Shown one piece after another: positions 19,097 to 34,954 of a stretch of 64,000 bases of DNA. Source of the DNA: Terriglobia bacterium (GTDB taxonomy: Bacteria; Acidobacteriota; UBA6911). The notes beneath the pieces were generated by a model. That model ran no database searches, was not told where the DNA came from, and saw only the letters and a program-made list of their open reading frames with translations. Positions within the stretch are counted from its first letter, which is position 1. Every line of letters begins with the position of its first letter. The stretch spans positions 124,001 through 188,000 of the forward strand of contig JAIQGI010000018.1 in NCBI GenBank assembly GCA_020072565.1, in the 5' to 3' direction. Both the position numbers and the translations under genes were made by a program.

Positions 19097-20076
19097 AGCG
19101 CACCCCCCGCGACTCGCGTTCTCGGATCGAGGATCAGCAGCAGGATATCAGCCGCCAGATTGCCGGCCACAAGCAGAATGGTGCTGCCGATGACGCAACC
19201 GGCCACCAGTGGCACATCTTTATTGAAAAGTGCGTTCAGGGTTGCCTGCCCCAGTCCGGGCCAGGTGAAGATCACTTCCAGGACGAGGCTCCCGCTCAGA
19301 ATGCTGCCGAGCAGCGGTCCGGAAGTGGATAGGATCGGATTCAACGAAGGCCGCAGCAAATAATGCAGGAAGATGTGCTGTTGCGGCAATCCGCGCGCGC
19401 GGGCGGCCCGGACGTAGGGCTCATTCAGGAGATCCTGCGTCGCGGCACACTGGATCCTTTCCACATATACCAGAATGGGCAGCGTCAGGCAGGCCACGGG
19501 GAGCACGAGATGATGGATCCTGTCGGCAATCCCCACGAGGAAATGCGGATCCTGCAGGCTGGTTGAACTCATGCTCCCCAGGGGGAACCAATGCGTGGAC
19601 GCTGCGATCAGGAGCGCGCCCAGCCCCAGAACCAACGTGGGCAGGGCGAGTGCCACGGTCGAGAGCAGATCGAGCGCGAGACCGATGAAGGTGTAACGGT
19701 TGAGAGCATGCATCGTCCCGAGCAAAACTCCTCCGATCATGCCCAGCATCAATGCCGGAACCCCCATCCACAGCGTTTTCGTGAGGGCGTCGAGCACGAC
19801 GCCTTGCACCGGTTGTTGATAAAAAAGGGAATTGCCGAGGTCCAGGCGCACGCACCGGCTGAGCCAACGGCCATACTGCACCAGGAGCGGCTGGTCGAGC
19901 CCGTACTGCTGACGCATCTGATCGATCGTCTGCCGGCGCACCGTCGGATCAAGCTCCCGGGCGGAGAAAAAGTCCCCCGGATTTAGCGACGACAACAGGA
20001 AGGTGGCCGAAGCGACCAGCAGGGAGAGGACTGCCAGCTGAAGAATCCGTTTCAGGATGGCAGCGAAAACCTTCAA
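19093..20076 (-). CDS. ABC transporter permease, DppB/OppB-like
   Basis: A 327-residue permease with six predicted membrane segments. The N-terminus (ILQLAVLSLLVASATFLLSSLNPGDFF) and the sequence RQTIDQMRQQYGLDQPLLVQYGRWL are typical for this subunit. The EAA motif appears as EPYVRAARARGLPQQHIFLHYLLRPSLNPI. It forms a heterodimeric channel with the DppC-like subunit. The gene starts 13 bases after the substrate-binding protein gene ends. Confidence 0.92.
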   Translation of the reverse strand: MKVFAAILKRILQLAVLSLLVASATFLLSSLNPGDFFSARELDPTVRRQTIDQMRQQYGLDQPLLVQYGRWLSRCVRLDLGNSLFYQQPVQGVVLDALTKTLWMGVPALMLGMIGGVLLGTMHALNRYTFIGLALDLLSTVALALPTLVLGLGALLIAASTHWFPLGSMSSTSLQDPHFLVGIADRIHHLVLPVACLTLPILVYVERIQCAATQDLLNEPYVRAARARGLPQQHIFLHYLLRPSLNPILSTSGPLLGSILSGSLVLEVIFTWPGLGQATLNALFNKDVPLVAGCVIGSTILLVAGNLAADILLLILDPRTRVAGGAL

Positions 20077-20089
20077 GATCTGCGCCTCG

Positions 20090-21856
20090 CTAGCGCGTCC
20101 GTTTGGTCAGTTCCTCGACATTCCAGAGCAGATACGGCACCAGGATCGACGGCCGGATATTTCCCAGGTTGTTTCTCCAGCCGGTGAGAATATTCGGGGC
20201 TACGGTCGCGATGGCCGGCATCTCCCGCGCCCAGATCTCCTGCACTTGAAAGAATGCTTTTTTGCGCACCGCATCATCCAGGCTTTGCACCAGCCGGGTT
20301 GTGAGAGAATCGACCTCAGCTTCCCAGGGGGTATTGGGCTTGCTCTGCTCCGGGTACCAGAAGTGGTTGCCGCCACTGCTGTACCAGAGGTCGGTCTGAA
20401 GGTCAGGGACGACATCGGTCGGGGTGTTACTCAGGAGAATTGCCTCATAATCGAAGGAGCGGCTGAAGCGGGGCGCGAGCTCGTTCATGAGAAGGAGCTG
20501 GACATTCACCCGTATTCCGACTTGCGCGAGATATTGCCTGATGATCTCGGCCGTTTTTTCCCTGGTCGCATTCCCCCTGGTTGTAAGGAGGACAATTTCG
20601 AGAGGGCGGCGCAGAGTGCCATACTCCACGATGCCGTCTCCGTTGGTGTCCTTGAGGCTGATCTGTGCGAGCAGTGCCCGCGCCCGCTTTGGGTCGAAGG
20701 GTGTGGGCCGCAGGCTGGTGTTGTACCAGACCCTGTTACCGGAGCTGATCGGGCCATACTGCGGCACCGCCAGCCCGCCATATACGGATCGTGCCACCGC
20801 CTCGCGATCCAGCGCGCAGGAAACCGCCTGCCGGAACGCGGCCTGTTCGAAGACGCTTTGTTTTTCCGGATCGAGAAACGGAGTGCCGGATGGGCTCTTG
20901 CCCGGGTTCAAATTGAACCACATGAAATCCATGCCCAACCCGGCGCCGAGATCCTGTACGGTATATTCCTTCGTCCTGTCCGGGCGGCGCAGCCGGGCAA
21001 AGTGCTCGGAATTCATGGAGCCGAGAACGTCGATTTCGCCGGCCTCAAAACGAAGGGCTTCCGCATTGCGATCCGGAATAATCAGGAAGGTCAGGGTATC
21101 GAGATACGGCAGCGTCTGCCCGGCCTTGTCTTTCTTCCAGTAGAAGGGATTTCGCTCGAGCACGATCCGGACGCCGCGCTGATACTCCTTCAAGCGAAAG
21201 GGTCCCAGTCCCGCGACCTCTTGCGGCGAAGCGGTGGGGCCCCATGCGGAAGCAAGGGCTCCTTCCTGATAGGTTTTCACCAATCGATTCTTGGGCAGCA
21301 TGGGGATCGAATCGAGCGATCGGAGTCCGGTGCCCACCGCCCTCGGCCAGGACAAGAGTACCGTAAAGTCATCGACCTTGGCGATCGCCGGAAACTTGCC
21401 GTCAGCTTGAAATTGATCGGCTCGGGTCGACGGATTCCGCGAATCCTGGAGCGCATTCAGGGTAAAAACGACATCGTCGGCAGTGAAGGGCCTCCCATCC
21501 GAAAAGCGCAATCCGCGCCGGAGATGGATGGTGTAAGTGCGGCCATCCTTGGCTGCCTCCCAGCCCGTGGCCAGAGAGGGCTCGAGTTCATAAGTACGCC
21601 GGTTGATGTGAACCAGGTCGGCCGACAGCGGCTCAGCGACCATGACATTCGCCACTCTGCCGGCGAACATGAGATTGAAAGTCGCCGGATCCTCACTCAC
21701 CGACGCGATCAGGCTGCCGCCGCGTGTGCCACCCAGGTCCGAACGCACCAGATAGTCGATGGTTTCTTTTTGCTGCGCATGTGCCGGACAAAAGGTAAGC
21801 GCGCAAGGCACCATGCCGACGACAAGAGCTGCCACGAGCCTGCATTTAGCGAACAT
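20090..21856 (-). CDS. ABC transporter substrate-binding protein, family 5
   Basis: A 588-residue exported solute-binding protein. Residues 1-28 form a signal peptide ending PAHAQ. The family signature is in YELEPSLATGWEAAKDGRTYTIHLRRGLRFSDGRPFTADDVVFTLNAL, and the C-terminal lobe has RQAVSCALDREAVARSVYGG and NTPTDVVPDLQTDLWYSSGGNHF. Family 5 proteins bind oligopeptides, nickel chelates or sugars. The reading frame continues to 22054, but the ATG at 21856 starts the signal peptide. It heads the operon with the two permeases. Confidence 0.9.
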   Translation of the reverse strand: MFAKCRLVAALVVGMVPCALTFCPAHAQQKETIDYLVRSDLGGTRGGSLIASVSEDPATFNLMFAGRVANVMVAEPLSADLVHINRRTYELEPSLATGWEAAKDGRTYTIHLRRGLRFSDGRPFTADDVVFTLNALQDSRNPSTRADQFQADGKFPAIAKVDDFTVLLSWPRAVGTGLRSLDSIPMLPKNRLVKTYQEGALASAWGPTASPQEVAGLGPFRLKEYQRGVRIVLERNPFYWKKDKAGQTLPYLDTLTFLIIPDRNAEALRFEAGEIDVLGSMNSEHFARLRRPDRTKEYTVQDLGAGLGMDFMWFNLNPGKSPSGTPFLDPEKQSVFEQAAFRQAVSCALDREAVARSVYGGLAVPQYGPISSGNRVWYNTSLRPTPFDPKRARALLAQISLKDTNGDGIVEYGTLRRPLEIVLLTTRGNATREKTAEIIRQYLAQVGIRVNVQLLLMNELAPRFSRSFDYEAILLSNTPTDVVPDLQTDLWYSSGGNHFWYPEQSKPNTPWEAEVDSLTTRLVQSLDDAVRKKAFFQVQEIWAREMPAIATVAPNILTGWRNNLGNIRPSILVPYLLWNVEELTKRTR

Positions 21857-22228
21857 GGGCGCAGTTTCGGGGAATTCGGTTCCGGTGTCAAGAACTAGCT
21901 GGATTCTGAAACGCCGCGGAGATGAAATCAGCGACTGCACGGAGCAAAACCCCAACGCGGAGGACGCTGAACGCGCAGAGAAAAAAACGAAAGCCAAACA
22001 TATGCCGACCGTTGGGGCCAAAGCCGGAGCTTGAAGCCAGTCATAACGCCACATTTACTGCGCCCTGTGCTTTGGAGTTTTTCATGGATACGGATTTGAA
22101 GGCATGCGATTCTTGATCGGGATTGCCCGTTTTTGGCATAGAATCTTCGCACGCGACCAAGCTGCACGCTACAGCAGGCGCAAGGCTGCCGTCCACTGCG
22201 GAGCCTCCCCTCATGAAGCGAGGCATCG
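21857..22228. other. Divergent intergenic region (372 bp)
   Basis: This stretch separates the ABC operon (minus) from the large sigma-54 regulator (plus). It holds the repeat at 21953-21988. No sigma-54 -24/-12 element (GG-N10-GC) was found in front of the regulator gene. GAGG six bases before 22229 is the only clear translation signal. No small gene is convincing. Confidence 0.5.
21953..21988. repeat. Dispersed intergenic repeat, copy 2
   Basis: Begins CAACGCGGAGGACGCTGAAC and ends GCAGAGAAAAAAA. It is related to 4862-4895. The pair shares the start CAACGC, the centre and the GCAGAGAAAAA end. Confidence 0.4.
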
Positions 22229-25200
22229 ATGACATCACCGGGTCTGAAGGAAGGGACAACTGTCGGGGATCGGTATCACGTGGACCGGCTTCTGGGGCAA
22301 GGGGAACTAGGCCGCGCCTACCTGTGCCGGGACCTGATGGATGAATCCCTGGTTGTACTCAGGACGCTGACCGAGTGGGACTCAGCGGAGGGAGTCGGAA
22401 GCCTGCGGCAGGAGCTGTCCTTCCTCAGCCGCTTCAAGCATCCCCACCTGGCCCATCTGTTGGACTTCGGCGTGATCGATCATGCCGCAACTCCTTACGT
22501 GGTGCGTCAGTTTGTGGAAGGAGCGGATGCCTTTCACGGATCCGCCGGCTGGAGCATCGATCGGGTGCTGTCATGCCTGGCAAAGCTCTGTCGCGTGCTT
22601 CAGTTCCTGCATTCGCGGAACATCCTGCACCACCACTTGAAGCCATCCAACGTAATTCTCGTCGACGTGGATGGCCGCGAGGCGGAGCCGAAGATATTGG
22701 ATTTCGGACTGAACCGGCGGGCAAAAATGGGCAGGCGCAGTCCGGCAACGATCGCATATACAGCCCCCGAGATTCTCCTCGGGCATGCGCGCAATCCCAG
22801 ATCCGATCTTTATTCCCTCGGTATCCTTGCCTATCAACTGCTCGCGCGCCGCCTCCCGTTTGATGATGAGGATGAAGGCTATCTGATCCAAAAACACCTG
22901 CAGGGGAAGGTGGACACGCGCCCGATCGAACGCCTGAGGGGCGGCGCCGGTCTCGCCCAGGTGCTGCTGGGCTTGCTGGAGAAGGACCCGGATAAGCGGC
23001 CGTCTTCGGCTGAAGATGTGGTCAGGCTGCTGAGCGCGGCGAGCGGTCGGGATTATTCGGGGACGGTGTCGGGGTCGATGGAAGCCTACTTCTCTCCGGG
23101 ACGATTTGTCGGGCGGGAAAAGGAGATGGCATGTTTGCAGGAGCGGGCGATCCGGGTGCGGCAGGATGGCCGCGGCTGGACCATTTTTTTGACCGGTGAG
23201 GGCGGCTCGGGCAAGTCGCGATGCCTGGAAGAGCTCAGAACCTGGGCTTTGCTCGAGGGCTGGAGAGTGGTTGAGGCTGCCTGTCTTCCCTGCGAAGACC
23301 GGTCGTATGGTCCTTATCGGCGCATCTTGGCGCGCGCCGCGCAGTTGCGACCCGCGCAGGGAGATGCCACGCGTGAGCATGCGATCTTTCGATTTGAAGA
23401 TGCAGCCCGGGCAGCGGAATCGCCGCGCTTTGAGTTGTCGTCCGGGTCGGCCGCGGGCCCTTTCCGGGACCAGCTGACGCGCGAGGTGGTGAGACTCCTG
23501 GCCGACCGCCCCACGCTGTTTTTGTTGCATGATTTTCATTGGGCGGATGAGGCGACGGTCACCGTTCTGGACTATTTGACTTCGGATATTCTCGCGCACC
23601 CCATCTTTTTGTGTGTGAGCCTGCGGCCCGCGGAGGCGGAACAGGGCCCCCTGAGACGGTTGATGGAACTGTCGGCCCGGCAACTCAGGGCGGAAACCCT
23701 GGCTCTGGAAGCTCTTCCCCTGCAGGCGATCGAGGATCTGATTGCCGGAATCACAGGCGAAACCTCGCTTGCCGGCGAGATCGGAACCTGGGTGCACAAG
23801 TCCAGCGGCGGAAACCCGTTTTTTGTGGAGGAGATTCTCAAGCACCTCGTCGACCGGGAGCTGCTGTGGCGTGAGTCGGGCCATTGGCGTCTTGCCTCCG
23901 AGGGTTTTGAAGATCTGGAGGTGCCGGCGAGTGTTGCCGTAGTGCTCAGGCGCCGGCTGGCCCAGTTGTCGCCCGGTGCGTTTGCCGTGACGGAATGGCT
24001 CGCCTTGGCCAGGCGGGCGCTTCCCAAGGACCAACTGCGGGCGCTGAGCTCGCTGGACTCGGATGAGCTCGAGACAAGGCTCAGGGAACTCATCTCCAGA
24101 CAAATCATTGGTGAAGTGAGCGGAAGAGGATGCTTCGAATTCCGGCATGCGCTGATCTCCGAGGTGATCACGGAGGATCTGCCTGCAGGGAAACGCCGCC
24201 GAATGCATCAGAGGATCGGAGAAATCCTCGAGGAGCACCACGGTACTCAGGAAAACCTGCAGGAATTGGCAATGCATTTCACGGAGGGGAGGTGCGGGGA
24301 GAAAGCAATCAGCTACGCCTTGAGGGCAGCCAGGGCATGCAAAGCCGAGTTTGCGAACGAGTCGGCATTGCGCTTCTACGAATATCTCCTGAACCATAAG
24401 AAGCTCTTGTCCATGGAACAGCAGTGCGACGTTTCGATCGAGGCTGCCGACAGCTGCTGCGCCCTCGGCAACCCAAAACGAGCTATCAGAATTCTAGGGG
24501 CTCAGTTGCACGATTTAGGGAAGGGCAAGAGGGCGCTTGCGATTCGTCTCTATACTCAGCTTTCACGGTCATTCCAATATCTTGGAGATATGGAAAAGTC
24601 CGAACAATCAGCAAAGCATGGAATGACACTTCTAGGGCGCCCAATTCTGGATCTGAATAAAAGCGAAGCGGAAATTCCGTTGCTTTCACAACTTGCTTTT
24701 TGCAGGTTGGCACATTCACAGCCCAGAAAAGGTCTGACCATGATCAGGAGCGCTTCGCGCTTCCCCTCAAAACCTCAGCAGACTATTATCGCCGGACATC
24801 TCCACATTCTGATATCTGCATTATGTAGCGTCGCATGCGATTTTGTTGAAGGAGCAAAAGCCGCCAAGACGGCAATCGAGATTCTTGAGCCACTGGGTGC
24901 CGATCACTTGCTTCCCATGGCTTATTCACATCTGGGTAACAGTTTGATAGGTATGGGCAAGCTGGGGAAAGCCCTGCACGAGTTCCAACGGGCGGTATCG
25001 ACGGGGAAGCGAACACGATCTCCTTTTTTGCTTGCCCAAGCTCTGTGCAATTTGACCGAGTGCTTCTGTAGGTCGGGCCAATTTGCCGCAGCGACCGAGA
25101 ATTCAACTAAAGCACTGAAGGCTGCATCGGAAACCGAAAACCGCCACATCTTATCAGCTGGCCTTTTGTGTGTGCTCGGGACTCAAATTGCGACAACTGA

Positions 25201-27652
25201 ATGGTCGCTCGCCTGTAACACGAAGAGGCTTCTAGCATCTCAAGACCTTGCATCGTTGCCAGTATATGCAAGGGCCCAGGCACTGTTTTTCTCAGCTTCA
25301 CTACACACGGAACTTGGTAGTTTTGAGGACGCGCTCTCAGACTTGGATTCTTTGCAGCGATTGGTCTCTTCTGAAACCCCGATATATGAAGCCAGCTTGG
25401 GCGAAATCCTAAGAGCCAAAATCTATTGCCAGCAGGGTCACATTGAGCAGGCGAAGGATTTGTTGCTAGAACTGGAAATCACGGTAACTCAAAAGCGGTG
25501 GGCTTATCAAATGACCCTCGCTAAGCTGCAGCTGGCCCAAGCGTTTCTCATGGCCGAAGATTGGCAAGAGGCATTCGCGCGAGCTCGCGGTTCACTTCGA
25601 CTCGCACGAGCAATGCCAGCCTTGCACCTTCAAGCTCAAGCCCACTATCTTTTGGCTAATATCTCACTCTTACGGGCGGAAAAGTCAGCATCTGCCGAAG
25701 GTGGTCCTAGGCTAATACAACCCTTGAACAATCAGGATTCATTGAAAACTGCTTATGCGGAATTTGAAAAAGCTCTGGCACTATCAGACAACCCGTTCAT
25801 GATCGAGACCGCGCGGCGTACGCACTACGCGATGATGCGCATTTGTAGGCTAGGCTATGAACCTGATGGTGCACTCAGACATGCCCAAAAGACATTGGAG
25901 TTACTCTCAGTAATTGAAGGAAGAGTACCAATTGACAAGTTAGATGCTTTTAAAAAGATGGAGGAACGCGAGCGCAGTAAGAACGAGTGTGAATGCCACA
26001 TACGCAAGTCTCTTGCGGACGGGGGAAAGATAACTCCGTCGATTGGTGACTTGGAAGAAGCACAGCTTCGCATACTATTCCGAATGAGTAGCACGATTAA
26101 CGCGATTCGAGATTTGGATGATCTAATGGAGGAAGTGCTCGGATTGCTGGCCACGGCTATGTGTATGGAACGCGCTCTGATTGCCCTGAAAGACAGGGAG
26201 ACTGGTCAAATCCGAATGGCGCGGAAGAGAAATCTAGGTTTTGCGTCGCTGGAGACAATGGATGTAATGAGCCGGAAGGTCATTCAGGAAGTTATTCGGT
26301 CGGGTAAACCATTTGTGACGGCAAATGCACGTTCGGACCCTCGTCTAACATGCCAAATCCGTGACGAATCCGCTGTGGGATCGTTTTTTTGCGCTCCCTT
26401 GGTGGCATGCGGACGTACTCTTGGGCTTCTTTACGCCGATCACCGATTTGCTATGGAAAGGCTTAACGAATCGACCATCAACTTGTTTGCCGCATTCTGC
26501 AATATTACTGTTGTCGCCATTGATAATGCCCTTGCTCATCGCCACTTGATGCAGGAAAAGAAGGAACTTGAACAATACCTCCGCCAGGCCAGGGGCGAGT
26601 ACCCCGAATTGATTGGAAAGAGCCCTGCGGTGCAAGAACTCCGGGAACGGATTGGACTTGCAGCTGCTTCACCTCTGGATGTTTTGACTTGGGGTGAGAG
26701 CGGGACCGGGAAGGAACTCGTCGCGCGGGCCCTTCATCGCACCGGACGCCGCGCCGGTGGCAAATTTGTCCCTCTTGACTGCGGTTCGCTGTCCGATACC
26801 CTCGTCGAGGGTGAACTCTTTGGCTATCGCAAGGGGGCATTCACCGGCGCCGTCGAAAACCGACCCGGCCTGTTCGAAGCCGCCGAAGGTGGAGTCATCT
26901 TCCTTGATGAGATCTCCAACTTGTCCTTACGACTGCAGAGGAAACTTCTGCGCGTGCTGCAGGAGCGCGAAGTAAGACGGATCGGAGAAACCGCTGCCCG
27001 CAAATTCAACGTTCAGGTTATCGTAGCCACAAACAGAGACCTGCGGCAGGAGATGCGCGAGGGGAGGTTCAGAGAAGATCTCTATTTCCGCCTGAATGCC
27101 ATGGAGATCAGAGTGGCGCCTTTACGCGAGCGCACCGAGGACGTGCCGCTTTTGCTCGAGTGGTTTCTGGACAAAGTCGGCAAAAATGAAGGTGGCAGGG
27201 TCAAGACTTTTTCCCGGGAGGCGCATGCGCTCCTCGTGCACTACTCCTATCCCGGTAATGTGCGGGAACTGAAAAACATAGTCGAGGGATCGTACTACTC
27301 CACCCCAGGTGACATTATCGGGGTCGGCCATCTGCCCACCGAAGTCCGGGACGGTGAAGCAGGAGCAGCTCCATGGGAACCTGCCCCCGCGGCATGGCAG
27401 GTTTACAAGCGGATCCGTGACGGCTTGGGGATCTTTGACGACTTGGTGAAAACTCCATTTCTCAAACGCCAGATCGGGTCCTCACAGGTCCGCCAAATGA
27501 TTCATTTGGCCCTCGCCGAAACCGGCGGCAGATACCGGGATGCATTCCGGCTCCTCGGCATTCCTGCCCGCGAATATGCCACCATGATCCAATTTCTAAA
27601 GCGGAACGATTGCTACCTGGACTTCCGGCCTTATCGCAAGCCACCCCGTTAG
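22229..27652 (+). CDS. Pseudokinase-AAA-TPR-GAF-sigma-54 activator fusion protein
   Basis: A 1807-residue multidomain regulator. Residues about 14-270 have a Ser/Thr kinase fold (LLGQGELGRAY, DFGLN at 158-160, APE as YTAPEILLG). The catalytic positions are altered: Arg45 (VVLRTL) at the ATP-anchoring Lys, and His134-His135-His136 in place of His-Arg-Asp. Residues about 291-470 are an AAA_16-type ATPase (FVGREKEM, Walker A GEGGSGKS). About 680-1280 is helical TPR-like repeats. About 1284-1450 is a GAF domain. About 1457-1690 is the sigma-54 interaction ATPase with GESGTGKE, GAFTGA (near 1535) and GGVIFLDEI. The end has a Fis-like helix-turn-helix (ALAETGGRYRDAFRLLGI). It should activate sigma-54 promoters; targets are unknown. 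Confidence 0.9.
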   Translation: MTSPGLKEGTTVGDRYHVDRLLGQGELGRAYLCRDLMDESLVVLRTLTEWDSAEGVGSLRQELSFLSRFKHPHLAHLLDFGVIDHAATPYVVRQFVEGADAFHGSAGWSIDRVLSCLAKLCRVLQFLHSRNILHHHLKPSNVILVDVDGREAEPKILDFGLNRRAKMGRRSPATIAYTAPEILLGHARNPRSDLYSLGILAYQLLARRLPFDDEDEGYLIQKHLQGKVDTRPIERLRGGAGLAQVLLGLLEKDPDKRPSSAEDVVRLLSAASGRDYSGTVSGSMEAYFSPGRFVGREKEMACLQERAIRVRQDGRGWTIFLTGEGGSGKSRCLEELRTWALLEGWRVVEAACLPCEDRSYGPYRRILARAAQLRPAQGDATREHAIFRFEDAARAAESPRFELSSGSAAGPFRDQLTREVVRLLADRPTLFLLHDFHWADEATVTVLDYLTSDILAHPIFLCVSLRPAEAEQGPLRRLMELSARQLRAETLALEALPLQAIEDLIAGITGETSLAGEIGTWVHKSSGGNPFFVEEILKHLVDRELLWRESGHWRLASEGFEDLEVPASVAVVLRRRLAQLSPGAFAVTEWLALARRALPKDQLRALSSLDSDELETRLRELISRQIIGEVSGRGCFEFRHALISEVITEDLPAGKRRRMHQRIGEILEEHHGTQENLQELAMHFTEGRCGEKAISYALRAARACKAEFANESALRFYEYLLNHKKLLSMEQQCDVSIEAADSCCALGNPKRAIRILGAQLHDLGKGKRALAIRLYTQLSRSFQYLGDMEKSEQSAKHGMTLLGRPILDLNKSEAEIPLLSQLAFCRLAHSQPRKGLTMIRSASRFPSKPQQTIIAGHLHILISALCSVACDFVEGAKAAKTAIEILEPLGADHLLPMAYSHLGNSLIGMGKLGKALHEFQRAVSTGKRTRSPFLLAQALCNLTECFCRSGQFAAATENSTKALKAASETENRHILSAGLLCVLGTQIATTEWSLACNTKRLLASQDLASLPVYARAQALFFSASLHTELGSFEDALSDLDSLQRLVSSETPIYEASLGEILRAKIYCQQGHIEQAKDLLLELEITVTQKRWAYQMTLAKLQLAQAFLMAEDWQEAFARARGSLRLARAMPALHLQAQAHYLLANISLLRAEKSASAEGGPRLIQPLNNQDSLKTAYAEFEKALALSDNPFMIETARRTHYAMMRICRLGYEPDGALRHAQKTLELLSVIEGRVPIDKLDAFKKMEERERSKNECECHIRKSLADGGKITPSIGDLEEAQLRILFRMSSTINAIRDLDDLMEEVLGLLATAMCMERALIALKDRETGQIRMARKRNLGFASLETMDVMSRKVIQEVIRSGKPFVTANARSDPRLTCQIRDESAVGSFFCAPLVACGRTLGLLYADHRFAMERLNESTINLFAAFCNITVVAIDNALAHRHLMQEKKELEQYLRQARGEYPELIGKSPAVQELRERIGLAAASPLDVLTWGESGTGKELVARALHRTGRRAGGKFVPLDCGSLSDTLVEGELFGYRKGAFTGAVENRPGLFEAAEGGVIFLDEISNLSLRLQRKLLRVLQEREVRRIGETAARKFNVQVIVATNRDLRQEMREGRFREDLYFRLNAMEIRVAPLRERTEDVPLLLEWFLDKVGKNEGGRVKTFSREAHALLVHYSYPGNVRELKNIVEGSYYSTPGDIIGVGHLPTEVRDGEAGAAPWEPAPAAWQVYKRIRDGLGIFDDLVKTPFLKRQIGSSQVRQMIHLALAETGGRYRDAFRLLGIPAREYATMIQFLKRNDCYLDFRPYRKPPR

Positions 27653-27697: not shown

Positions 27698-30115
27698 TCA
27701 AATTCGAGGAGGAAATTCGAGCACGTTGCCTTCCGACCCAGACGCTTGAGGGTTGGCAAGCTTTGCATGTTCGGTGAGCGCTTTCTGAGCGGCCTGGAGC
27801 AAAACCAGCAAGGTAGGCCCGTCATTTGGATAGGATGCGACACCTGTCTGGCACGCAACAAACCAGGTATTTCCGGGTGCCAGATTCACTGGTGTGCTCT
27901 TGATCAGCTGCTGCAGCCGGTGGACATAGCGAAGCGCCTGCGGGCTGCCCACCCCCGGGAGCAGTGCGACGAATCCATCGTGTCCGAAGCGGACCAGGAT
28001 ATCTGTCTGGCGCAGCTCGGACCGCAGGACGTCTGCCACCTTGCGTAGAATCAGATCACCCGTGCCTGCTCCATAGAGCGCGACGCTGTGCGCGAAGTTC
28101 TTGATTTCAAGAGTAACAAGGGATAGCGGAGTCTCCGTCTTCGCAGCATGTGCAAGCATCTGCGCGCCTGCAACTGAAAGGTAGGCGACACGATAGGTTC
28201 CTGTGACGGGGTCCAGGAGGCCTTCATCCCCAGACTTGCCGATGGCGCCGGCTTCGCGCACGAGCGGGGCGACCTGCTCCGCGACGGTTTGGAGGAGAGA
28301 GAGGTGAGTCGGGGAATAGAAGGTATGTTCGCGGGCATAAAGAGAGATTGTGCCGAGGCATTCTCCATCCTGAACCAGCGGAACGGCAAGGGCATCTTTC
28401 AACGCGGTGAAATCTCCTGCGAATCCCTGGAATTCCAGGGCGGCACCGGTGTTGAGCATAGGCCGTTTGTAGGCAGCCACCCAACCGCTGATTCCTTTGC
28501 CGAGCCCTATACTGAGGCCCTGCAAAGACTCTGCGAGGTCGCCACAGGCATATGCCGCTTTGAGGGAACCGTCATCCTGATTCAAATAAAAAGCACAGGT
28601 GTGATAAGGCACAATCCGCTCCAGACGGCGGGCCAGAATCGGCAAGGCGTCGGCAAGTCCAAGAGATCGCCCCATGCCCCCGCAGAACTCGAAAACGCGG
28701 ACGAGTTCTTCCGATGCGGTTGTCGGCGGCGATTGATCTGCAGGTAATGCCTCAGCTTGGGCGATGGCGCTGTCTACATTCTCGAAATACTTTCGGAACG
28801 AAAGTTCTGAAAGGTTTCGTGTTGCCTCGTCTGCTGAAGCCTCCAGTTCGTTGATGTGGCTGATAAAGAGCTCAACGAGCCTGGGATCATAGCTGCTCCC
28901 CGCCTGTGCCCGCAGCAGCTCAACCGAATCGTCGATGCCGAACGCCGATTTGTACGGCCGCGTGGACCTGATTGCATCGAAAGCGTCGGCAATTGACAAA
29001 ATCCTGGCCCCAATGGGAATTTCCTCACCTCTTAATCCGTCGGGATACCCAGACCCATCCCATCGTTCATGGTGGCAGCGGACGAATCTGGCAACGGGAA
29101 ATGGGAATTGGACTTGTTGAAGGATTTCGTCGCCGGCAGTGGCATGCAATTTCATTTTCTCAAACTCCTGTTTACTCAGCCTGCCGGGTTTGTTAAGTAT
29201 GTAGTCTTCAATGGCCAACTTGCCGATGTCGTGAAGCAGGGATCCAGTTTCGATTGCCTTGAGTTCATTTGCGTCAGTTATATGGCTGAGTTTGGCCAAT
29301 CCCAAAGCATAGGCCCTGACACGGCGAATGTGCCCATAGGTTGTTTGATCTTTTGCATCAACTGCCAACGCCAACGTCTCCACAGTTCTCAAATACAGGC
29401 CTTCCTGCTCATTCAAATGCTTCTCTGCTTCCATAGCCTTTGCCTGGTTAATCTTGTTCCATCCCCATACAACACCCACGAGCGGAGCCGCAGCGAAAGG
29501 AACATAATCATTCGCAGACTTCAGAGCAACTATAATGGCTGCCGAGACTGCGGATACAGAGAAGTCAATGTAGAGAGGAAGATAATTCTTGGACCAAAAC
29601 CGTAGTATGCCATCCCCCGTTGTCCAAGCGATAACTGTGGAAGTGATAAGAGAATTGTATAAGAAAAATGTAATTGTCAGTACGGCAGCTGGCAGGACCA
29701 TTAATCCAAGGTCACTGCTAAGATCAGGATTTAGAAAACGATATAGGCTGCTGTATAACCAAGCACCACAGATCATGCTGGAGGTATTGAAAACAATTTT
29801 GTAAGGAAGAACTCTACGTCGACATAATAGAGCGATGAGAGTGTGACAGAAGGTAGCAACTATGCATGGCGTTGGCCCATATAGCATCGCGACAGACATA
29901 ATGTACGCATCGCTAATTCCAATCATTGTGTTTACAGAAGGCAAGGCAAGAAAGAAGGGCACAGAGCCAACTGCCAAGAGAACAAGGATTATCCAAGTTA
30001 TCTGTGGAGGGTTATATAGTAAATCCCAAATCGCCCACGAGAAGATAGGGAATGCAGCTCCTGTCACCAGGATTATTAGGGTTTTTACTTTGAGTGGAAG
30101 CTGCATCCATGTCAT
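27698..30115 (-). CDS. Membrane HD-GYP phosphodiesterase with GAF and degenerate GGDEF domains
   Basis: An 805-residue protein. The N-terminus has about six to seven membrane helices (residues 1-215). An HD-GYP domain follows at about 230-425, with GHIRRVRAYALGLA, HDIGK, CHHERWDGSGYPDGLRGEEIP and RILSIADAFDA. The metal and GYP residues are intact, so it probably hydrolyses cyclic-di-GMP or a related dinucleotide. A GAF domain lies at about 470-620. The C-terminal GGDEF-like domain (about 635-790) reads RFGHDGFVALL, so the GG(D/E)EF loop is GHDGF and diguanylate cyclase activity is unlikely. The 5' part encoding the membrane region is AT-rich relative to the neighbourhood. It converges on the sigma-54 regulator gene. 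Confidence 0.9.
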   Translation of the reverse strand: MTWMQLPLKVKTLIILVTGAAFPIFSWAIWDLLYNPPQITWIILVLLAVGSVPFFLALPSVNTMIGISDAYIMSVAMLYGPTPCIVATFCHTLIALLCRRRVLPYKIVFNTSSMICGAWLYSSLYRFLNPDLSSDLGLMVLPAAVLTITFFLYNSLITSTVIAWTTGDGILRFWSKNYLPLYIDFSVSAVSAAIIVALKSANDYVPFAAAPLVGVVWGWNKINQAKAMEAEKHLNEQEGLYLRTVETLALAVDAKDQTTYGHIRRVRAYALGLAKLSHITDANELKAIETGSLLHDIGKLAIEDYILNKPGRLSKQEFEKMKLHATAGDEILQQVQFPFPVARFVRCHHERWDGSGYPDGLRGEEIPIGARILSIADAFDAIRSTRPYKSAFGIDDSVELLRAQAGSSYDPRLVELFISHINELEASADEATRNLSELSFRKYFENVDSAIAQAEALPADQSPPTTASEELVRVFEFCGGMGRSLGLADALPILARRLERIVPYHTCAFYLNQDDGSLKAAYACGDLAESLQGLSIGLGKGISGWVAAYKRPMLNTGAALEFQGFAGDFTALKDALAVPLVQDGECLGTISLYAREHTFYSPTHLSLLQTVAEQVAPLVREAGAIGKSGDEGLLDPVTGTYRVAYLSVAGAQMLAHAAKTETPLSLVTLEIKNFAHSVALYGAGTGDLILRKVADVLRSELRQTDILVRFGHDGFVALLPGVGSPQALRYVHRLQQLIKSTPVNLAPGNTWFVACQTGVASYPNDGPTLLVLLQAAQKALTEHAKLANPQASGSEGNVLEFPPRI

Positions 30116-30271
30116 GGCAGCCTACTCCGAACACAGTTTCTCACGTCCATTATCGTCAGCCGGTTCTCGGAGGATTAGTTCTCAGTCTCGCGGACAGGAT
30201 GAGGTCAAAAAATAGTAGAAAAACCATTGCTTTGAGGTAAGATCTTTTCCAAAACAAATTACTCTCAGCTT

Positions 30272-30320
30272 TAAACGCCGAAGGCTTGAGAATCTCGGTA
30301 GCTATTCTTGTCTCTCCTTT
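30272..30320 (-). repeat. Decayed fourth copy of the small-ORF unit (no ATG)
   Basis: After the last intact copy, the minus strand reads AAAAGGAGAGACAAGAATAG, then CTACCGAGATTCTCAAG. This resembles the ribosome site and the ACCGAA...ATTCTTGAG core of the intact copies, with a six-base deletion. The expected ATG is ATA, and no 19-codon frame with the right stop exists. I read it as a degenerate copy. The alignment is short and the call is tentative. Confidence 0.35.
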
Positions 30321-30344: not shown

Positions 30345-30404
30345 CTAAATCCACAGAACGCTCGGCGTTTCACGGGTCTCAAGAATTTCGATTTCGGTTT
30401 GCAT
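30345..30404 (-). CDS. 19-residue peptide, array copy A
   Basis: The ORF encodes MQTEIEILETRETPSVLWI and ends in TAG. GAGGAG lies eight bases upstream of the ATG (minus strand AGAGGAGAATCGAAA). The peptide is acidic in its first two thirds (five Glu) and ends in a hydrophobic Val-Leu-Trp-Ile. It is identical in sequence to copies B and C. Compared with B, the two codon differences (CTG/TTG Leu, ATT/ATC Ile) are silent. It has no Cys, no double-Gly and no obvious signal peptide. I do not recognise the family. Context suggests a precursor or signalling peptide handled by the PqqD-M50-HlyD protein encoded upstream. Confidence 0.7.
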   Translation of the reverse strand: MQTEIEILETRETPSVLWI

Positions 30405-30449
30405 TTTCGATTCTCCTCTTGTGCTAGCGTGCTCGAATTGTCGACTTCA

Positions 30450-30509
30450 CTAGATCCACAAAACGCTCGGCGTTTCACGGGTCTCAAGAATTTCGATTTC
30501 GGTTTGCAT
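30450..30509 (-). CDS. 19-residue peptide, array copy B
   Basis: The product is MQTEIEILETRETPSVLWI, identical to copies A and C. GGGAGAGACGCGA lies in front of the ATG and supplies a ribosome site. It is separated from copy A by 45 bases and from copy C by 40 bases; these spacers are much less conserved than the coding parts, although both retain ...AGTGA and TCGAG fragments. Against copy C, eight codons differ (Gln, Leu, Glu, Thr, Pro, Ser, Val, Ile) and all eight changes are synonymous. This is direct evidence that the peptide, not the DNA, is under selection. Confidence 0.72.
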   Translation of the reverse strand: MQTEIEILETRETPSVLWI

Positions 30510-30546
30510 TCGCGTCTCTCCCGTTATGCTCGAATTAGGGATCTCA

Positions 30547-30606
30547 CTAAATCCACAAGACACTTGGTGTTTCACGGGTTTCGAGAATTTCGATTTCGGT
30601 CTGCAT
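30547..30606 (-). CDS. 19-residue peptide, array copy C
   Basis: The product is again MQTEIEILETRETPSVLWI. AAGGAGATGCAG directly precedes the ATG, the best ribosome site of the three. It is the most diverged copy at DNA level and differs from A at eight of nineteen codons without one amino-acid change. It is the first of the three in transcription order and follows the 10-codon ORF at 30659-30691. Confidence 0.72.
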   Translation of the reverse strand: MQTEIEILETRETPSVLWI

Positions 30607-30658: not shown

Positions 30659-30691
30659 TTACAGCCAAAGAATAGCGCCTGGCTTATTCAT
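30659..30691 (-). CDS. 10-residue peptide with matching Leu-Trp C-terminus
   Basis: ATG AAT AAG ... TGG CTG TAA encodes MNKPGAILWL. AGAAAGGA lies about seven bases upstream of the ATG. The last residues, Ile-Leu-Trp-Leu, parallel Val-Leu-Trp-Ile of the three 19-mers, and a Pro lies just before in both. An ORF this short could arise by chance; the ribosome site, position directly upstream of the array, same strand, and shared C-terminus raise its credibility. Confidence 0.45.
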   Translation of the reverse strand: MNKPGAILWL

Positions 30692-31314
30692 GATTGGTTC
30701 CTTTCTGACAAATGGTCCAAGTAGAAACGAACTGCCGTTTGTTACGACGTACTAATGCCGATTATGCAAATCACGGGATGGCTGGGCTGTGCCCAAAGAA
30801 GCACCGATTTGGCGGCGGTACAAGTCCCCAAGAAGCCCAGCCGGCAGCAGCGAATCCTCCTGTACCGTAAAAGGGCGCCGTGTACAAGCATCCTGCTTGC
30901 GATACTCGCCCTTGGCCGCACGCTCCAGCCACCCTGAAAGCATGCGGCTATGCTGGCGCTCCAAACCTTCCGCTCAAATCAGCTTAGCTCTTCCGCTGGG
31001 GGGTGATCAGGTCCGTTCGGTTCCCGACCAAGTGACCTGACCCACCTCATGGTGGGAGAGCCATTCGAGAAACTGACTGCCGAACAAAGGCGCAAACTAT
31101 TGATACGCCTAATCTTACTGATCAATGGATACTTCTAAAACAACACCTGAAGACATCGGACGAAGCGACCCAACAGCCGCAACTCCGTCCCAACAACTTT
31201 TATAGGTAATCATTTATACGAAGATTGAATAATTATGTCAACAAAAATCTGCGAAGATCATGAGAAATCGGAATTTCTGGACACGGCGAGGAAATCTTCC
31301 CTTCCAGTCACGCC
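30692..31314. other. 623-bp region without a confident gene, leader of the small-ORF array
   Basis: This region lies between the array and the M50 fusion gene. It holds a strong minus-strand promoter at 31213-31241. Plus-strand 31049-31138 is an open 29-codon frame (starts MVGEPFEKLT) without a ribosome site; I cannot support it as a gene. The part around 30870-30960 (CCGTGTACAAGCATCCTGCTTGC) looks like degenerate repeat material. If transcribed from 31206, it would be a 5' leader of about 515 nucleotides. Confidence 0.5.
31213..31241 (-). promoter_or_regulatory. Near-consensus sigma-70 promoter facing the small-ORF array
   Basis: On the minus strand TTGACA (31241-31236) and TATAAA (31218-31213) are separated by exactly 17 AT-rich bases. 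This is the best housekeeping promoter I found in the window. It lies 74 bases past the stop of the M50 fusion gene and points towards the 10-mer and 19-mer ORFs, with an expected start near 31206. Confidence 0.72.
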
Positions 31315-33741
31315 TCATGGCAGATATTCCCAAAACTCGGTCCGCAACCACCTGATGGCCCGGCGGGTGACGAGTTCCCCGATCATGCGCTTGCCGCAGA
31401 GAATCTTGCCTACGCCGGTCATGCCTGCCTTCAACGAGCCGTCAGCATTCAGCAACTCCCCCCGAACCACGACCTTGCGTTCTTGAGCACCTTCGACGGC
31501 GATTGGAGAGATGCTCTTCACCTGAGCATTAAGCGGTCGTTTCGAAAAAGCGCTCACCTTGACCACGATGGGGTAACCTACGGCGACATCGGCGATCTCC
31601 TTTTCAGGAACCGGCATATCGAGGATCACAAGCCTGACATCCACAACCTGGCAGAAGAGATTCCCCTTTTCGATATATGCGCCGAGCTTGTTCTTCAGAT
31701 ACGGAGTCGATACCACACCGTCGATGGAGCTTCGGATCTTCAGATGTTCGAGCTGCTGTTCCAGGATGCTCAGTTTTTCCTCGAGTCTGGCCACATCAGC
31801 CTCGACCGCCTGGATCGACTCTTTTCGCGAGCCGGCCAGAAGGATCTTGAGTTCACTATTCGCTTCTGCAAGCGCCTTCGTCCGGAGGAGCCTGTCTCTA
31901 TCTGTGCGCTCTTCGAGGACTTTGAGCTGGCCTTTCGCCTCGGCGAGTTCTTTTTGTGCCACCGCAAAAGCAGTCTGATTGCGCTCCAGTTCGTTTTTGG
32001 CAATCAGACCTCCCAAGAAGAGTGACTGGCTGCGCTCAAAAATGCTTTGCGCATTTTGCAGCTCCGCTTCCTTCTTGGCCACGGTGTCGAGCAGCAGTCT
32101 GCGCTCCTCGTCCACCCGCCCGGCATTCTCGAGATCGGTTCTTCGGGTCTCAACCGCCCGCTGTGCGCGTTCGATCTCCTCCGGACTTTTGCCGGCTTTG
32201 AGGAGATTCAGAGAAGCCCTGCTTGACGCAAGCTGTCCCCGGGTCTCCTCGTATGCGTTGCTCAACACCAGATTCTGGATCTCGGCGAGCACGTCTCCTT
32301 TTTTAACTTGACTCCCTTCATCGACATAAATCGACCTGAGCGTTCCCTCAACATCCGGGTTTATGCCCACGGTCTTGCCTGGCAGTATCACGAAATCTCC
32401 TGTGACTTTGAGCTCCCACGGGAAAAAGCCCGCAGCCAGGACGATGGCTGCGCCGATCAGCAGGTAGGGAGCCTTCCGAATCCTGGTGCCCACCCCGCCC
32501 GCCAGCTTGCCCGCGGCCGCGATATTTTCCCTGCTGGTTACCGGGACCACCATCAGACAAACCACTGAAAACAGGAGAATCCCCCATGTCTGATATTGAC
32601 CCACCATCCAGGCGCCCAGGCGTCCGAGTAAGATCAGAAGCAATCCCGCGGAAAAGGCAAAGGAGGAGACTCCGTAGAGAACGAAAATGCGCCGCTCCCG
32701 CGCGGTCAAAAAGGGGCTGCGTCTCCCCGTGCCGATCAACAGGTAGCTCAGCCTGCGTTTCAGGTAACCGAACGACTTCTGCCTCAGATTGGGCACTTCC
32801 AGATAGTCGCTCAGCAGGTAATAGCCGTCCAACCGCAAGAGAGGATTGAAATTAAACAGGGTCTGGATTCCGGAAAAGGCAATCGTGATCAGGCAGATGC
32901 GGCTTCCGAGTGTCTCAGGCGACAATAATCGCCACGCGATCGTGGCCCACGACCAGAGAACCAGCTGGATAAATCCGCCTGCGCATGACACCAGCATTCT
33001 TTCTCTCTTCTTGAGCAACCAGGCGTCACTTACATTGCAGTAGAAGCCGGGGATGAGGTAGAGAACCAGCAAGCCCATTTCTTCCACCTTTCCGCCGAAA
33101 TGCTTGAGCGTCAGGGCGTGCCCGAACTCGTGGATGGTCATCACGGTGAATGCGACCATCAGAATCAACGGAATGGAGTAGAGCGTGAATATCTGCGGCA
33201 GGGTGAAGACAAGCTGGTCCCAATTCACGAGGGAAAGGATTGCGCCCGCGGCGATCGACGCCCATCCCAGCACCTGGAACCCCGGACCGAAGAAGAAGCG
33301 GCCCAGCCTGGCCTCCATGCGCGTCAGCAACCGGTCTGGATTGGATGCGTGGATCTTGATCGACAGTACGCTGTCGAGCAGGCGGTGCCTGCGTTTTGAC
33401 AGCTTTTCGAGGCGGGACCACGAGGACGCATTGTCCAGCAACAGCAAATCCTGGAGCTTGTCAATGAAGTCCTCAACCTGACTCGTTTCCACTTTGACCT
33501 GGCACTGCTCGGATGCTGCTCCGGCCACCGCTCCCGCATTATGCAGGCCGTCGAGCCGGGCAAGCACGGTCGCTTGCACCCAGGTGAAACGGTAGAAGCG
33601 TCTCGAAAGCGGATCCTTCACTACGACAGGAGAGTGCGGATCGGAGGTCTCCGGTCGGATCTCGAGATCGGAACGCAGCTTTGCGCGGGTGTCGGCCAAA
33701 TCAAACCTCAGCGGATCAATACAGGCGACCACGGCGATCAT
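31315..33741 (-). CDS. PqqD-like / M50 site-2 protease / HlyD adaptor fusion protein
   Basis: An 808-residue protein. Residues about 20-105 have a PqqD-like pattern (VVVKDPLSRRFYRFTWVQATVLARLDG ... VEDFIDKLQDLLLLD), the fold that binds RiPP precursor leaders. Residues about 165-440 are a multi-helix M50 domain with HEFGH near 203-207, and LLRLDGYYLLSDYLEVPNL carrying the metal Asp. From about 453 a HlyD/membrane-fusion part has biotinyl-lipoyl halves (ILPGKTVGINPDVEGTLRSIYVDEG; IRSSIDGVVSTPYL) flanking a long coiled coil (about 495-630). It may cut and export a peptide. The ATG at 33741 lacks a good ribosome site; a TTG at 33699 with GAGG six bases upstream is an alternative. No ABC exporter or outer-membrane factor is adjacent. 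Confidence 0.85.
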   Translation of the reverse strand: MIAVVACIDPLRFDLADTRAKLRSDLEIRPETSDPHSPVVVKDPLSRRFYRFTWVQATVLARLDGLHNAGAVAGAASEQCQVKVETSQVEDFIDKLQDLLLLDNASSWSRLEKLSKRRHRLLDSVLSIKIHASNPDRLLTRMEARLGRFFFGPGFQVLGWASIAAGAILSLVNWDQLVFTLPQIFTLYSIPLILMVAFTVMTIHEFGHALTLKHFGGKVEEMGLLVLYLIPGFYCNVSDAWLLKKRERMLVSCAGGFIQLVLWSWATIAWRLLSPETLGSRICLITIAFSGIQTLFNFNPLLRLDGYYLLSDYLEVPNLRQKSFGYLKRRLSYLLIGTGRRSPFLTARERRIFVLYGVSSFAFSAGLLLILLGRLGAWMVGQYQTWGILLFSVVCLMVVPVTSRENIAAAGKLAGGVGTRIRKAPYLLIGAAIVLAAGFFPWELKVTGDFVILPGKTVGINPDVEGTLRSIYVDEGSQVKKGDVLAEIQNLVLSNAYEETRGQLASSRASLNLLKAGKSPEEIERAQRAVETRRTDLENAGRVDEERRLLLDTVAKKEAELQNAQSIFERSQSLFLGGLIAKNELERNQTAFAVAQKELAEAKGQLKVLEERTDRDRLLRTKALAEANSELKILLAGSRKESIQAVEADVARLEEKLSILEQQLEHLKIRSSIDGVVSTPYLKNKLGAYIEKGNLFCQVVDVRLVILDMPVPEKEIADVAVGYPIVVKVSAFSKRPLNAQVKSISPIAVEGAQERKVVVRGELLNADGSLKAGMTGVGKILCGKRMIGELVTRRAIRWLRTEFWEYLP

Positions 33742-33893
33742 GACGGCTTCGGAGTGGCATGATATCGGCAGGAGGCTGCAAATGCAACAGTATTGAAAGT
33801 TGCAGGAACCCTGAGAGGAATACCGCCGGGAATTCCGGGACCTAGACGGTGAAGGCCCAGGTTTCAAGACACCCCCTTGCACTTTGATCTCTA

Positions 33894-33950
33894 AGCTCTG
33901 AGCGCACTCTGCATTGAGATTTTCCGGATGCAGCTGCGCGGTGTCCCGTT
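33894..33950. repeat. Dispersed intergenic repeat (GCGCA...TTGAGATTTT type), copy 1
   Basis: The segment CTCTGAGCGCACTCTGCATT followed by GAGATTTTCCGGATGCAGCT and GCGCGG matches 40213-40262 along most of its length. Both lie between genes. No coding role is seen. Confidence 0.5.
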
Positions 33951-34009
33951 CTTGAGGGTTGAATTCGTACCCCAGTCTCTGAATCGCGGCGGATGACGTT
34001 TTTCTCGAA

Positions 34010-34039
34010 TTGACTGCCTTGCGGCACCGCGTATATAAT
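34010..34039 (+). promoter_or_regulatory. Sigma-70 promoter of the FGE-fold lipoprotein gene
   Basis: TTGACT (34010-34015) and a perfect TATAAT (34034-34039) are separated by 18 bases. Transcription would start near 34047, giving a short leader of about 38 bases, and AAGGAG lies eight bases before the ATG at 34085. Confidence 0.75.
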
Positions 34040-34084
34040 CGCGCGTTCTGACACCTACACGCAGAGAACTCACAAGGAGATGTC

Positions 34085-34954
34085 ATGATCAGAAAAACTA
34101 TTTACGTCCTAGCACTCATACTCGTGGTTCTTGCGCTGGGGGCATGCGGGCAGAAGCAAGAGGCCCAGCCTCAGGCTCAGCAGGCAGCAGCAGTCCCAGA
34201 AAAACCGAAAGTTATTCCAGGCGAGATGGTGCTGATTCCGGCAGGAGAATACACGATAGGGACGAATGAAAAAGATCCCGGCGACCCTGCAAAGAAAGAT
34301 TTCACAAACGCCTATCCCGAACACAAGGTGAAGCTGCCTGCATTCTGGATCGACAAATACGAAACAACGGGCAAGGAGTACCTGGAATTTTCCATCAAGA
34401 CTTCTTACGTAGTCGAGGGCCAGGAAGAGGGTAAGACCTGGAGAACGTTTTTCTCTCTCGAAAAACCCAACGTTCCAGTCACGTACATCACCTGGAAGGA
34501 TGCCAACGAATACTGCAAAGCACAGGGCAAACGGCTGCCGACGGAAGAGGAATGGGAGGCAGCGGCACGTGGACCCAATGGATACCGCTACCCATGGGGC
34601 AACGAATGGGACGCCACCAAGGCTAACACCGCGGACGCAGGCTACCGCGTCCCGGTGGACATAGGTCAGTTCGACGATGTCAGCCCATTTGGCGTTCATG
34701 ACATGTACGGCAACGTCCAGGAATGGGCATCGGATTCGTACAAGCCCTACAAAGGAAATCCGAAGGCCGGCGGGCTGGAGTTCAATTCCGGCTACAAGGT
34801 TCTCCGGGGTTTGGGCTCCCGCTACACCGGTACCAAGTCGTCAGGTCTCTGGGCGCGAACGGCCTATCTGCCGAACTACCTCGCTGACTTTGGTTGCCGC
34901 TGCGCCAAGTCCGCCACTCCGGAAGAGGCGGCCAAGGCTGTGCCGGCCAAGTAG
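34085..34954 (+). CDS. Formylglycine-generating-enzyme-fold lipoprotein (SUMF1 family)
   Basis: A 289-residue lipoprotein: the signal peptide ends in a lipobox (LALGACG, Cys at residue 22), followed by a Gln/Ala linker. Residues about 45-275 match the FGE-sulfatase domain: GEMVLIPAGEYTIGTNE, PVTYITWKDANEYCKAQGKRLPTEEEWEAAARG, YPWGNEWD, GVHDMYGNVQEWASD and FGCRCAKS. The family includes sulfatase-activating enzymes and many non-catalytic or Fe-dependent oxygenase relatives. The paired active-site Cys of true FGE is not evident, so sulfatase activation is not claimed. It is under its own promoter and converges on the RlmI-like gene after 20 bases. Confidence 0.87.
   Translation: MIRKTIYVLALILVVLALGACGQKQEAQPQAQQAAAVPEKPKVIPGEMVLIPAGEYTIGTNEKDPGDPAKKDFTNAYPEHKVKLPAFWIDKYETTGKEYLEFSIKTSYVVEGQEEGKTWRTFFSLEKPNVPVTYITWKDANEYCKAQGKRLPTEEEWEAAARGPNGYRYPWGNEWDATKANTADAGYRVPVDIGQFDDVSPFGVHDMYGNVQEWASDSYKPYKGNPKAGGLEFNSGYKVLRGLGSRYTGTKSSGLWARTAYLPNYLADFGCRCAKSATPEEAAKAVPAK

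Follow-up and report, generated by a model that had tools for sequence, protein, structure and literature searches.

Gram-positive pheromones of the SHP and ComS types work with Rgg/ComR receptors, the M50 protease Eep, and Opp import. Precedent for the cutting of small ribosomal peptides by M50 proteases comes from TglG and TmoG (pearlins) and from EpeP (epipeptide), the last being a precedent for export as well (PMC10885120); an RRE-M50-HlyD fusion is not met in the portions of the RRE-Finder paper that were consulted (PMC7470986). We found no described system that matches the locus reported here. This locus lies in the window (i.e., the whole stretch of 64,000 nucleotides of DNA analysed), and its usual order is a gene for an RRE-M50-HlyD fusion, a structured 5′ RNA, an ORF for a peptide ending in AILWL, one or more MQTEIEILETRE peptides, and a gene for an HD-GYP protein. 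The reading that we prefer, and which in our judgement has about an even chance of being right, is that the locus encodes tandem RRE-guided precursors of a secreted Trp peptide under c-di-GMP-linked control, which would act via the membrane HD-GYP protein. These role assignments are inferred from synteny, linked motifs, and structure prediction, and no experiment yet backs translation, cleavage, export, or sensing.

Tandem micro-ORFs and their recurrence in the family

The following small features were identified in the window:
30345..30404, minus strand: copy A of the 19-aa peptide MQTEIEILETRETPSVLWI, with ATG, TAG stop, and ribosome site
30450..30509, minus strand: copy B of the same peptide, with ATG, TAG stop, and ribosome site
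30547..30606, minus strand: copy C of the same peptide, the earliest transcribed copy
30265..30320 (about), minus strand: decayed fourth copy, read by eye, ATG and frame lost (AATAGCTACCGAGATTCTC...), ribosome site retained
30659..30691, minus strand: second micro-ORF, MNKPGAILWL-stop, 10 codons, upstream of the 19-aa copies

Three copies encoding one identical peptide had been reported on the minus strand in an initial annotation, and they were found exactly where it had placed them, each with its own ATG, TAG stop, and ribosome site (GGAG/GAGAG type). Nucleotide differences number 2 between A and B, 8 between A and C, and 8 between B and C; all are silent and fall at codon position 3 or are Leu C/TTG changes. 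Synonymous sites represent ~21% of all sites, and an all-silent outcome was obtained in 0 of 200,000 simulated sets with nine random substitutions each. The 36-nt flanks of the copies presented an identity of only about 45–59% with gaps allowed, which bears out the annotation's remark that the spacers are less conserved than the ORFs. One antisense frame was equally unchanged in a six-frame comparison of the copies, though it lacks a start and is interrupted by a stop. Neither the decayed fourth copy nor the AILWL micro-ORF appears in that annotation, which likewise makes no mention of the structured 5′ RNA, a link to c-di-GMP, or the subtilases with tryptophan repeats described below.

Of the 15 family genomes, 10 carry the 19-aa peptide, without exception at this position, and it was found in every relative whose contig spans that place, with the same gene order and a protein identity of about 50–57%; these ten genomes represent uncultured Acidobacteriota, and all family genomes besides that of the window that could be named are metagenome assemblies. 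Contigs of two of the remaining genomes (G004 and G012) stop just short of the peptide position, a third (G001) presents two AILWL peptides followed by the contig end, with no 19-aa peptide reached, and no M50-HlyD gene was seen in the other two (G003 and G013), whose assemblies are incomplete; because all five negatives represent ended contigs or incomplete assemblies, no clear loss of the peptide was seen in the family. Intact copies start with MQT[ED]IE[IV]LE and keep R11 and P14, with W18 kept where the copy is complete, while the residues after the Trp vary (I, T, Y, A, GGKGR, TIGQP, TVAQP, and GWH), so that the tails differ in length with the frame kept. Codons 2–14 presented a pN/pS of 0.14. 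One relative (G008) carries three tandem copies plus a degenerate one. No convincing distant copy was found beyond the family among 38 genomes of the class, 396 genomes of the phylum (one genome per species being sampled in these collections), or in a pattern scan of 84,980 species, in which the other matches occurred in unrelated bacteria and look like chance; no NCBIfam or Pfam family matches the peptides.

The initial annotation had inferred selection on the peptide, had seen in it a candidate for an undescribed system, and had held that recurrence beside the same neighbours with a dN/dS well below 1 would support it; the relatives present just this pattern, with a pN/pS of about 0.14 in the same gene order. 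It had named repeats kept with a broken reading frame in related genomes as grounds for refutation; all intact copies keep the frame. Judged on sequence, the 19-aa ORFs are real coding genes under selection. That the repeats are instead conserved as RNA or DNA elements, with the ORFs incidental, is barely credible to us: the repeats do lie downstream of a structured RNA, but not one difference between the copies alters the peptide, pN/pS stays low from genus to genus, and the tails after the Trp differ in length yet keep the frame.

The second micro-ORF reads MASAILWL, MASGILWL, or MQKFGAILWL in relatives, with a ribosome site in each case, and its last five codons presented a pN/pS of 0.046. 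Very stable GC-rich hairpins directly follow the peptide stop in two relatives (L018 and L020), with a T run next in L018, which hints that transcription of the peptides is able to stop ahead of the HD-GYP gene.

Neighbouring genes, the RRE domain, and a leader motif

The larger genes around the peptides are as follows:
18068-22054, minus strand: oligopeptide-type ABC permeases and binding protein (Opp), beside the kinase-sigma54 gene
22229..27652, plus strand: Ser/Thr kinase-AAA-TPR-GAF-sigma54-activator protein, convergent, syntenic in the family
27698..30115, minus strand: membrane (MASE9-like)-HD-GYP-GAF-GGDEF protein with intact HD-GYP motifs and a degenerate GGDEF motif (GHDGF)
31315..34086, minus strand: RRE (PqqD-like)-M50 site-2 protease-HlyD adaptor fusion, HEFGH and LDG motifs intact
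33334..33690, minus strand: RRE domain of the M50-HlyD protein, predicted by AlphaFold2 (pLDDT 84) and Foldseek
34085..34954, plus strand: FGE-sulfatase-domain lipoprotein, divergent, syntenic in the family

The full order is thus the divergent FGE-domain lipoprotein gene, the M50-HlyD gene, a TTGACA promoter, the leader RNA, the AILWL ORF, the MQT peptide(s), the HD-GYP-GAF-GGDEF gene, and the convergent gene for the kinase-sigma54 activator. Two loci depart from this order (L017 and L022, both without a recognisable leader RNA, L017 also without the AILWL ORF). The catalytic HD-GYP motifs HDIGK and HHERWDGSGYPDG are present in the window protein; its N-terminus matches proteins that match Pfam MASE9, with no direct match to the MASE9 model itself. 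The Opp permease genes were considered as an import partner and rejected, being missing from the syntenic position in relatives. A search for sigma-54 sites returned 13 matches (≤1 mismatch) across the whole window, none of them near the peptide locus.

Translation of the RRE-M50-HlyD protein probably starts near 33730. Pfam PqqD matched the N-terminus of a relative's M50-HlyD protein with E 2.1e-4 and 22.0 bits, under the curated cut-off of 23.4. The AlphaFold2 model, built from nine aligned sequences, presents a strand-strand-strand-helix-helix-helix arrangement; its top PDB match in Foldseek was TbiB1 with leader peptide (probability 1.0, TM 0.70 by target), and other top matches were PqqD, lasso B1 with leader, and sactipeptide maturases. 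The first seven matches had a probability near 1, but E-values were weak (best 9e-3). The RRE fold rests on structure prediction, and on the model the locus has the PqqD-like RRE expected of an RRE-dependent system. The M50 domain of the window protein scored 195 bits with the daptide model (cut-off 300) and 55 bits with the YydH/LiaK model (cut-off 225).

Peptides with the pattern hE.LE.[RK].[AT]P occur beside RRE-M50-HlyD genes elsewhere in the phylum. In 19 such loci (189 kb), all outside the window peptide's own set, 15 peptides were found and 11 loci were positive. The corresponding figures were two peptides, in two of 15 loci with an M50 match lacking the RRE part, and zero for 313 kb of controls (79 loci); as the pattern was framed after several members had already been seen, these counts describe rather than predict. 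The window leader matched the hE.LE.R.AP profile with an hhalign P of 1.5e-4, with 1 of 2000 shuffles as good, and its closest single member is MELTIEVLEERIAPSV in L221. The association of the leader with an RRE thus rests on genomic association and a profile match only, without binding data. The family of leaders also occurs away from HD-GYP genes, and a literature search on the motif returned nothing relevant. Leader peptides with repeated GYEGQPGNQ-type cores adjoin RRE-M50-HlyD genes in five loci (L216, L218, L219, L221, and L222), including three different ones in tandem in L221, and ~97-residue proteins with the same leader (KVEELESRIAPSVG...) are located near M50 genes without a matched RRE part (L230:7477, plus strand, and L239:7743, minus-strand count).

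Under the preferred reading, the three ORFs would be tandem precursor genes, each encoding a leader (MQTEIEILETRE-T/N-P) and a short C-terminal core that ends hydrophobic-hydrophobic-Trp (SVLWI in the window). The PqqD-like domain of the fusion protein is inferred to bind the leader, the intramembrane site-2 protease may then cut it, and the HlyD adaptor would pass the core outward. The AILWL peptide does not fit easily here, as its 8–10 residues offer the RRE no leader. The comparison that the initial annotation drew with RiPP and pheromone precursor genes gains weight as regards an RiPP-like origin, because the neighbouring M50-HlyD protein carries an RRE and the leader motif recurs beside such proteins; there is as yet no proof of a RiPP modification or of a pheromone role. 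Since no modifying enzyme adjoins the peptides (none was found among the genes examined beside them, the rest of the genome being outside the search), an RiPP in the strict sense has not been demonstrated.

The same parts may be read differently, with the peptides as precursors of antimicrobials or other effectors under c-di-GMP control and the HD-GYP protein only setting their expression. Loci for peptide natural products typically contain such RRE, M50 protease, and exporter parts, and the M50 protease EpeP matures the epipeptide EpeX and is thought to export it (PMC10885120). We nevertheless consider this unlikely, as the locus has neither a conserved immunity gene nor a conserved modifying enzyme, the AILWL-type peptide and the HD-GYP gene are linked across families, and the Trp ending recurs in the tails of subtilases.

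Leader RNA, c-di-GMP riboswitches, and the tryptophan motif

Two further features are located between the M50-HlyD gene and the micro-ORFs:
30982..31076, minus strand: conserved structured 5′ leader RNA (TTCTCGAATnGCTC...), long helix, compensatory changes in the upper stem
31213..31241, minus strand: putative promoter TTGACA-17 nt-TATAAA, 5′ of the leader RNA, TTGACA conserved in relatives

A stricter promoter scan rejects the putative promoter because its second hexamer ends in A. The leader RNA is a 100-nt element whose start, TTCTCGAATAGCTC, pairs with a conserved GAGC; both sides have changed in all four pairs counted in the upper stem. Pairing was found in 93% of cells, as compared to 85% in column shuffles and 34–39% with the partner slid; because the structure was drawn from these same sequences, the comparison with the slid partner is biased in its favour. 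The covariance model of the RNA gave one match per genome, only at this locus (the G005 copy being weak, E 0.09); the loci listed are the window, L018–L026 (L022 without a recognisable copy), L102, and L103. No Rfam model, including that of the c-di-GMP-I riboswitch, matched the window RNA.

Known riboswitches were identified in two sister loci. In one genome of another family of the same class (G022), the order is M50-HlyD, two c-di-GMP-I riboswitches, MKETYGVIWV, MTENTALLNEIAQIEELEQKTAPSASAVVV, and MASE9-HD-GYP-GGDEF; in another family of the phylum (G375), a single c-di-GMP-I-GGC riboswitch comes after the M50-HlyD gene, and then a leader peptide and an HD-GYP-GGDEF gene. The leader RNA of the window family occupies the place held by these riboswitches and is a candidate riboswitch, its ligand not being known; because a c-di-GMP-I riboswitch holds the same position in two related families, the window RNA probably couples peptide output to c-di-GMP. 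It counts against the preferred reading that c-di-GMP riboswitches occur only in the sister loci and are absent from the window.

The position of the ORFs, in the 5′ region of the HD-GYP gene and below a structured leader RNA, would also suit cis-acting attenuators (uORFs) that control the HD-GYP gene, with the peptide itself functionless. This is very unlikely, in that conservation covers the N-terminal leader instead of being limited to the final codons, where stalling would be expected, the number of copies varies and ribosome sites are separate, and two relatives have stable terminator-like hairpins after the peptides; moreover, members of the leader family are also found where no HD-GYP gene is near, and protein tails too carry the Trp motif.

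A search with the membrane domain of the HD-GYP protein gave matches in 42 of 396 genomes of the phylum. Many of the HD-GYP genes found are preceded by a gene for a protein (a subtilase where checked) with a tandem-repeat C-terminus, e.g., (TIIWGD)13, (QIIWGD)12, IAWSDG, TIVWTN, or AILWGD, and micro-ORFs between the repeat protein and the HD-GYP gene end in a similar motif (MSRLIIWGE, MAKLIIWGE, MRKLIIWGE, MVAVIIWGD, MQKIIVWD, MRIIAWGS, MQFIVYWGD, and MNKIVHWTD). Of 16 MASE9-HD-GYP loci with a preceding W-repeat protein, 14 had such a micro-ORF, as against none of 21 lacking the repeat protein (Fisher 2e-8), with 0.2 per 16 expected from shuffles; the motif count that delimits the repeat-tail set was picked after inspection. 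In repeat-protein loci examined later, micro-ORFs were seen at no locus without a following membrane HD-GYP gene and at only part of those with one. Three tandem, non-identical micro-ORFs (MIAQIVYWTD, MNTEKIVYWGD, and MNNGKIVYWDD) occur in L152 (G018; oriented view 186–449), which parallels the tandem copies of the window.

Repeat proteins, mostly subtilases and often several per genome, occur in at least 49 of the 396 Acidobacteriota genomes, and no Pfam or NCBIfam model spans the repeat tail; literature searches on the repeat motif, and on MASE9 with peptides, returned nothing relevant. Loci with Trp-repeat-tail proteins include L136, L142, L134, L147, L139, L121, L133, L130, L129, L131, L119, L151, L152, and L154. 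Within the window family, one genome (G001) encodes two subtilases with AILWGD-type repeats as well as micropeptides ending in AILWL. A subtilase partner in the window genome was ruled out, as its three S8 proteins have no Trp repeats. A rigid solenoid was also rejected for the repeat, whose spacing ranges from 6 to 12 residues and is better accounted for by a repeated linear motif.

Leaderless micro-ORFs just 5′ of MASE9-HD-GYP genes (MASAILWL, MAKLIIWGE, and MQKIIVWD) may suggest that the W-ending peptides are intracellular small protein regulators that bind the MASE9 domain directly, without export. This we regard as quite improbable, given that the 19-aa peptides have an RRE-type leader and adjoin an RRE-M50-HlyD gene, and that the motif is also found in the tails of subtilases, which are usually secreted.

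Proposed circuit and comparison with known systems

To complete the preferred reading of a secreted, RRE-guided Trp peptide, the cis-regulatory 5′ RNA would control the operon, and the Trp core together with the leaderless AILWL micropeptide, which has the same ending, may target or work together with the MASE9-HD-GYP c-di-GMP phosphodiesterase encoded downstream, so that peptide level and c-di-GMP would be joined in a loop; both the ligand of the RNA and sensing by MASE9 are inferences. A wider and only tentative possibility, which we would not yet bet on, is an Acidobacteriota-wide hydrophobic-hydrophobic-Trp peptide code, carried by free micropeptides of 8–20 residues and by subtilase tails, read by MASE9-HD-GYP proteins, and made under c-di-GMP RNA control; it would represent a new class of peptide-c-di-GMP signalling circuit, in which the leader class (hE.LE.R.AP) and, in one family, the riboswitch would be new as well. 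Genes of 8–20 codons are routinely missed, and the set described here is shown to be genuine by silent-site conservation and by phylum-wide linkage to neighbours. What MASE9 membrane sensors respond to becomes open to testing through this locus, which also contributes a fusion of RRE, protease, and exporter that has a leader class of its own, along with riboswitches that link peptide production to c-di-GMP. It further brings to light a structured RNA whose ligand is not known and Trp-repeat-tailed subtilases of unknown purpose.

Compared with RRE-dependent RiPPs (PqqD/B1-type RRE), the locus shares short precursors, a conserved acidic/hydrophobic leader, and an adjoining PqqD-like fold protein and protease, and the expectation of a short precursor with leader and core under coding selection is met. 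It differs in that its RRE forms one protein with a site-2 protease and an HlyD adaptor, no modifying enzyme turned up beside the peptides, the core can be as short as about 5–7 residues, and a c-di-GMP riboswitch and HD-GYP genes are neighbours. The proteases of epipeptide (EpeP/YydH/LiaK) and daptide systems likewise represent M50 intramembrane proteases acting on a small ribosomal peptide; however, the window M50 domain falls under both model cut-offs and is fused to HlyD, and its neighbours include no radical-SAM epimerase or daptide enzymes. A pearlin-type scaffold peptide was rejected, as no such ligase occurs among the neighbours examined. Like c-di-GMP-I riboswitch operons (RF01051 and RF03167), two sister families have riboswitches 5′ of the peptide and HD-GYP genes, whereas the window family has a different structured RNA with no Rfam match. 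The SHP/ComS systems share tiny, hydrophobic, Trp-containing peptides and an associated M50 protease; in contrast, no Rgg/ComR-type regulator was found among the genes examined here, the Opp genes of the window are not conserved in relatives, and the conserved neighbour of the window peptides is a c-di-GMP enzyme.
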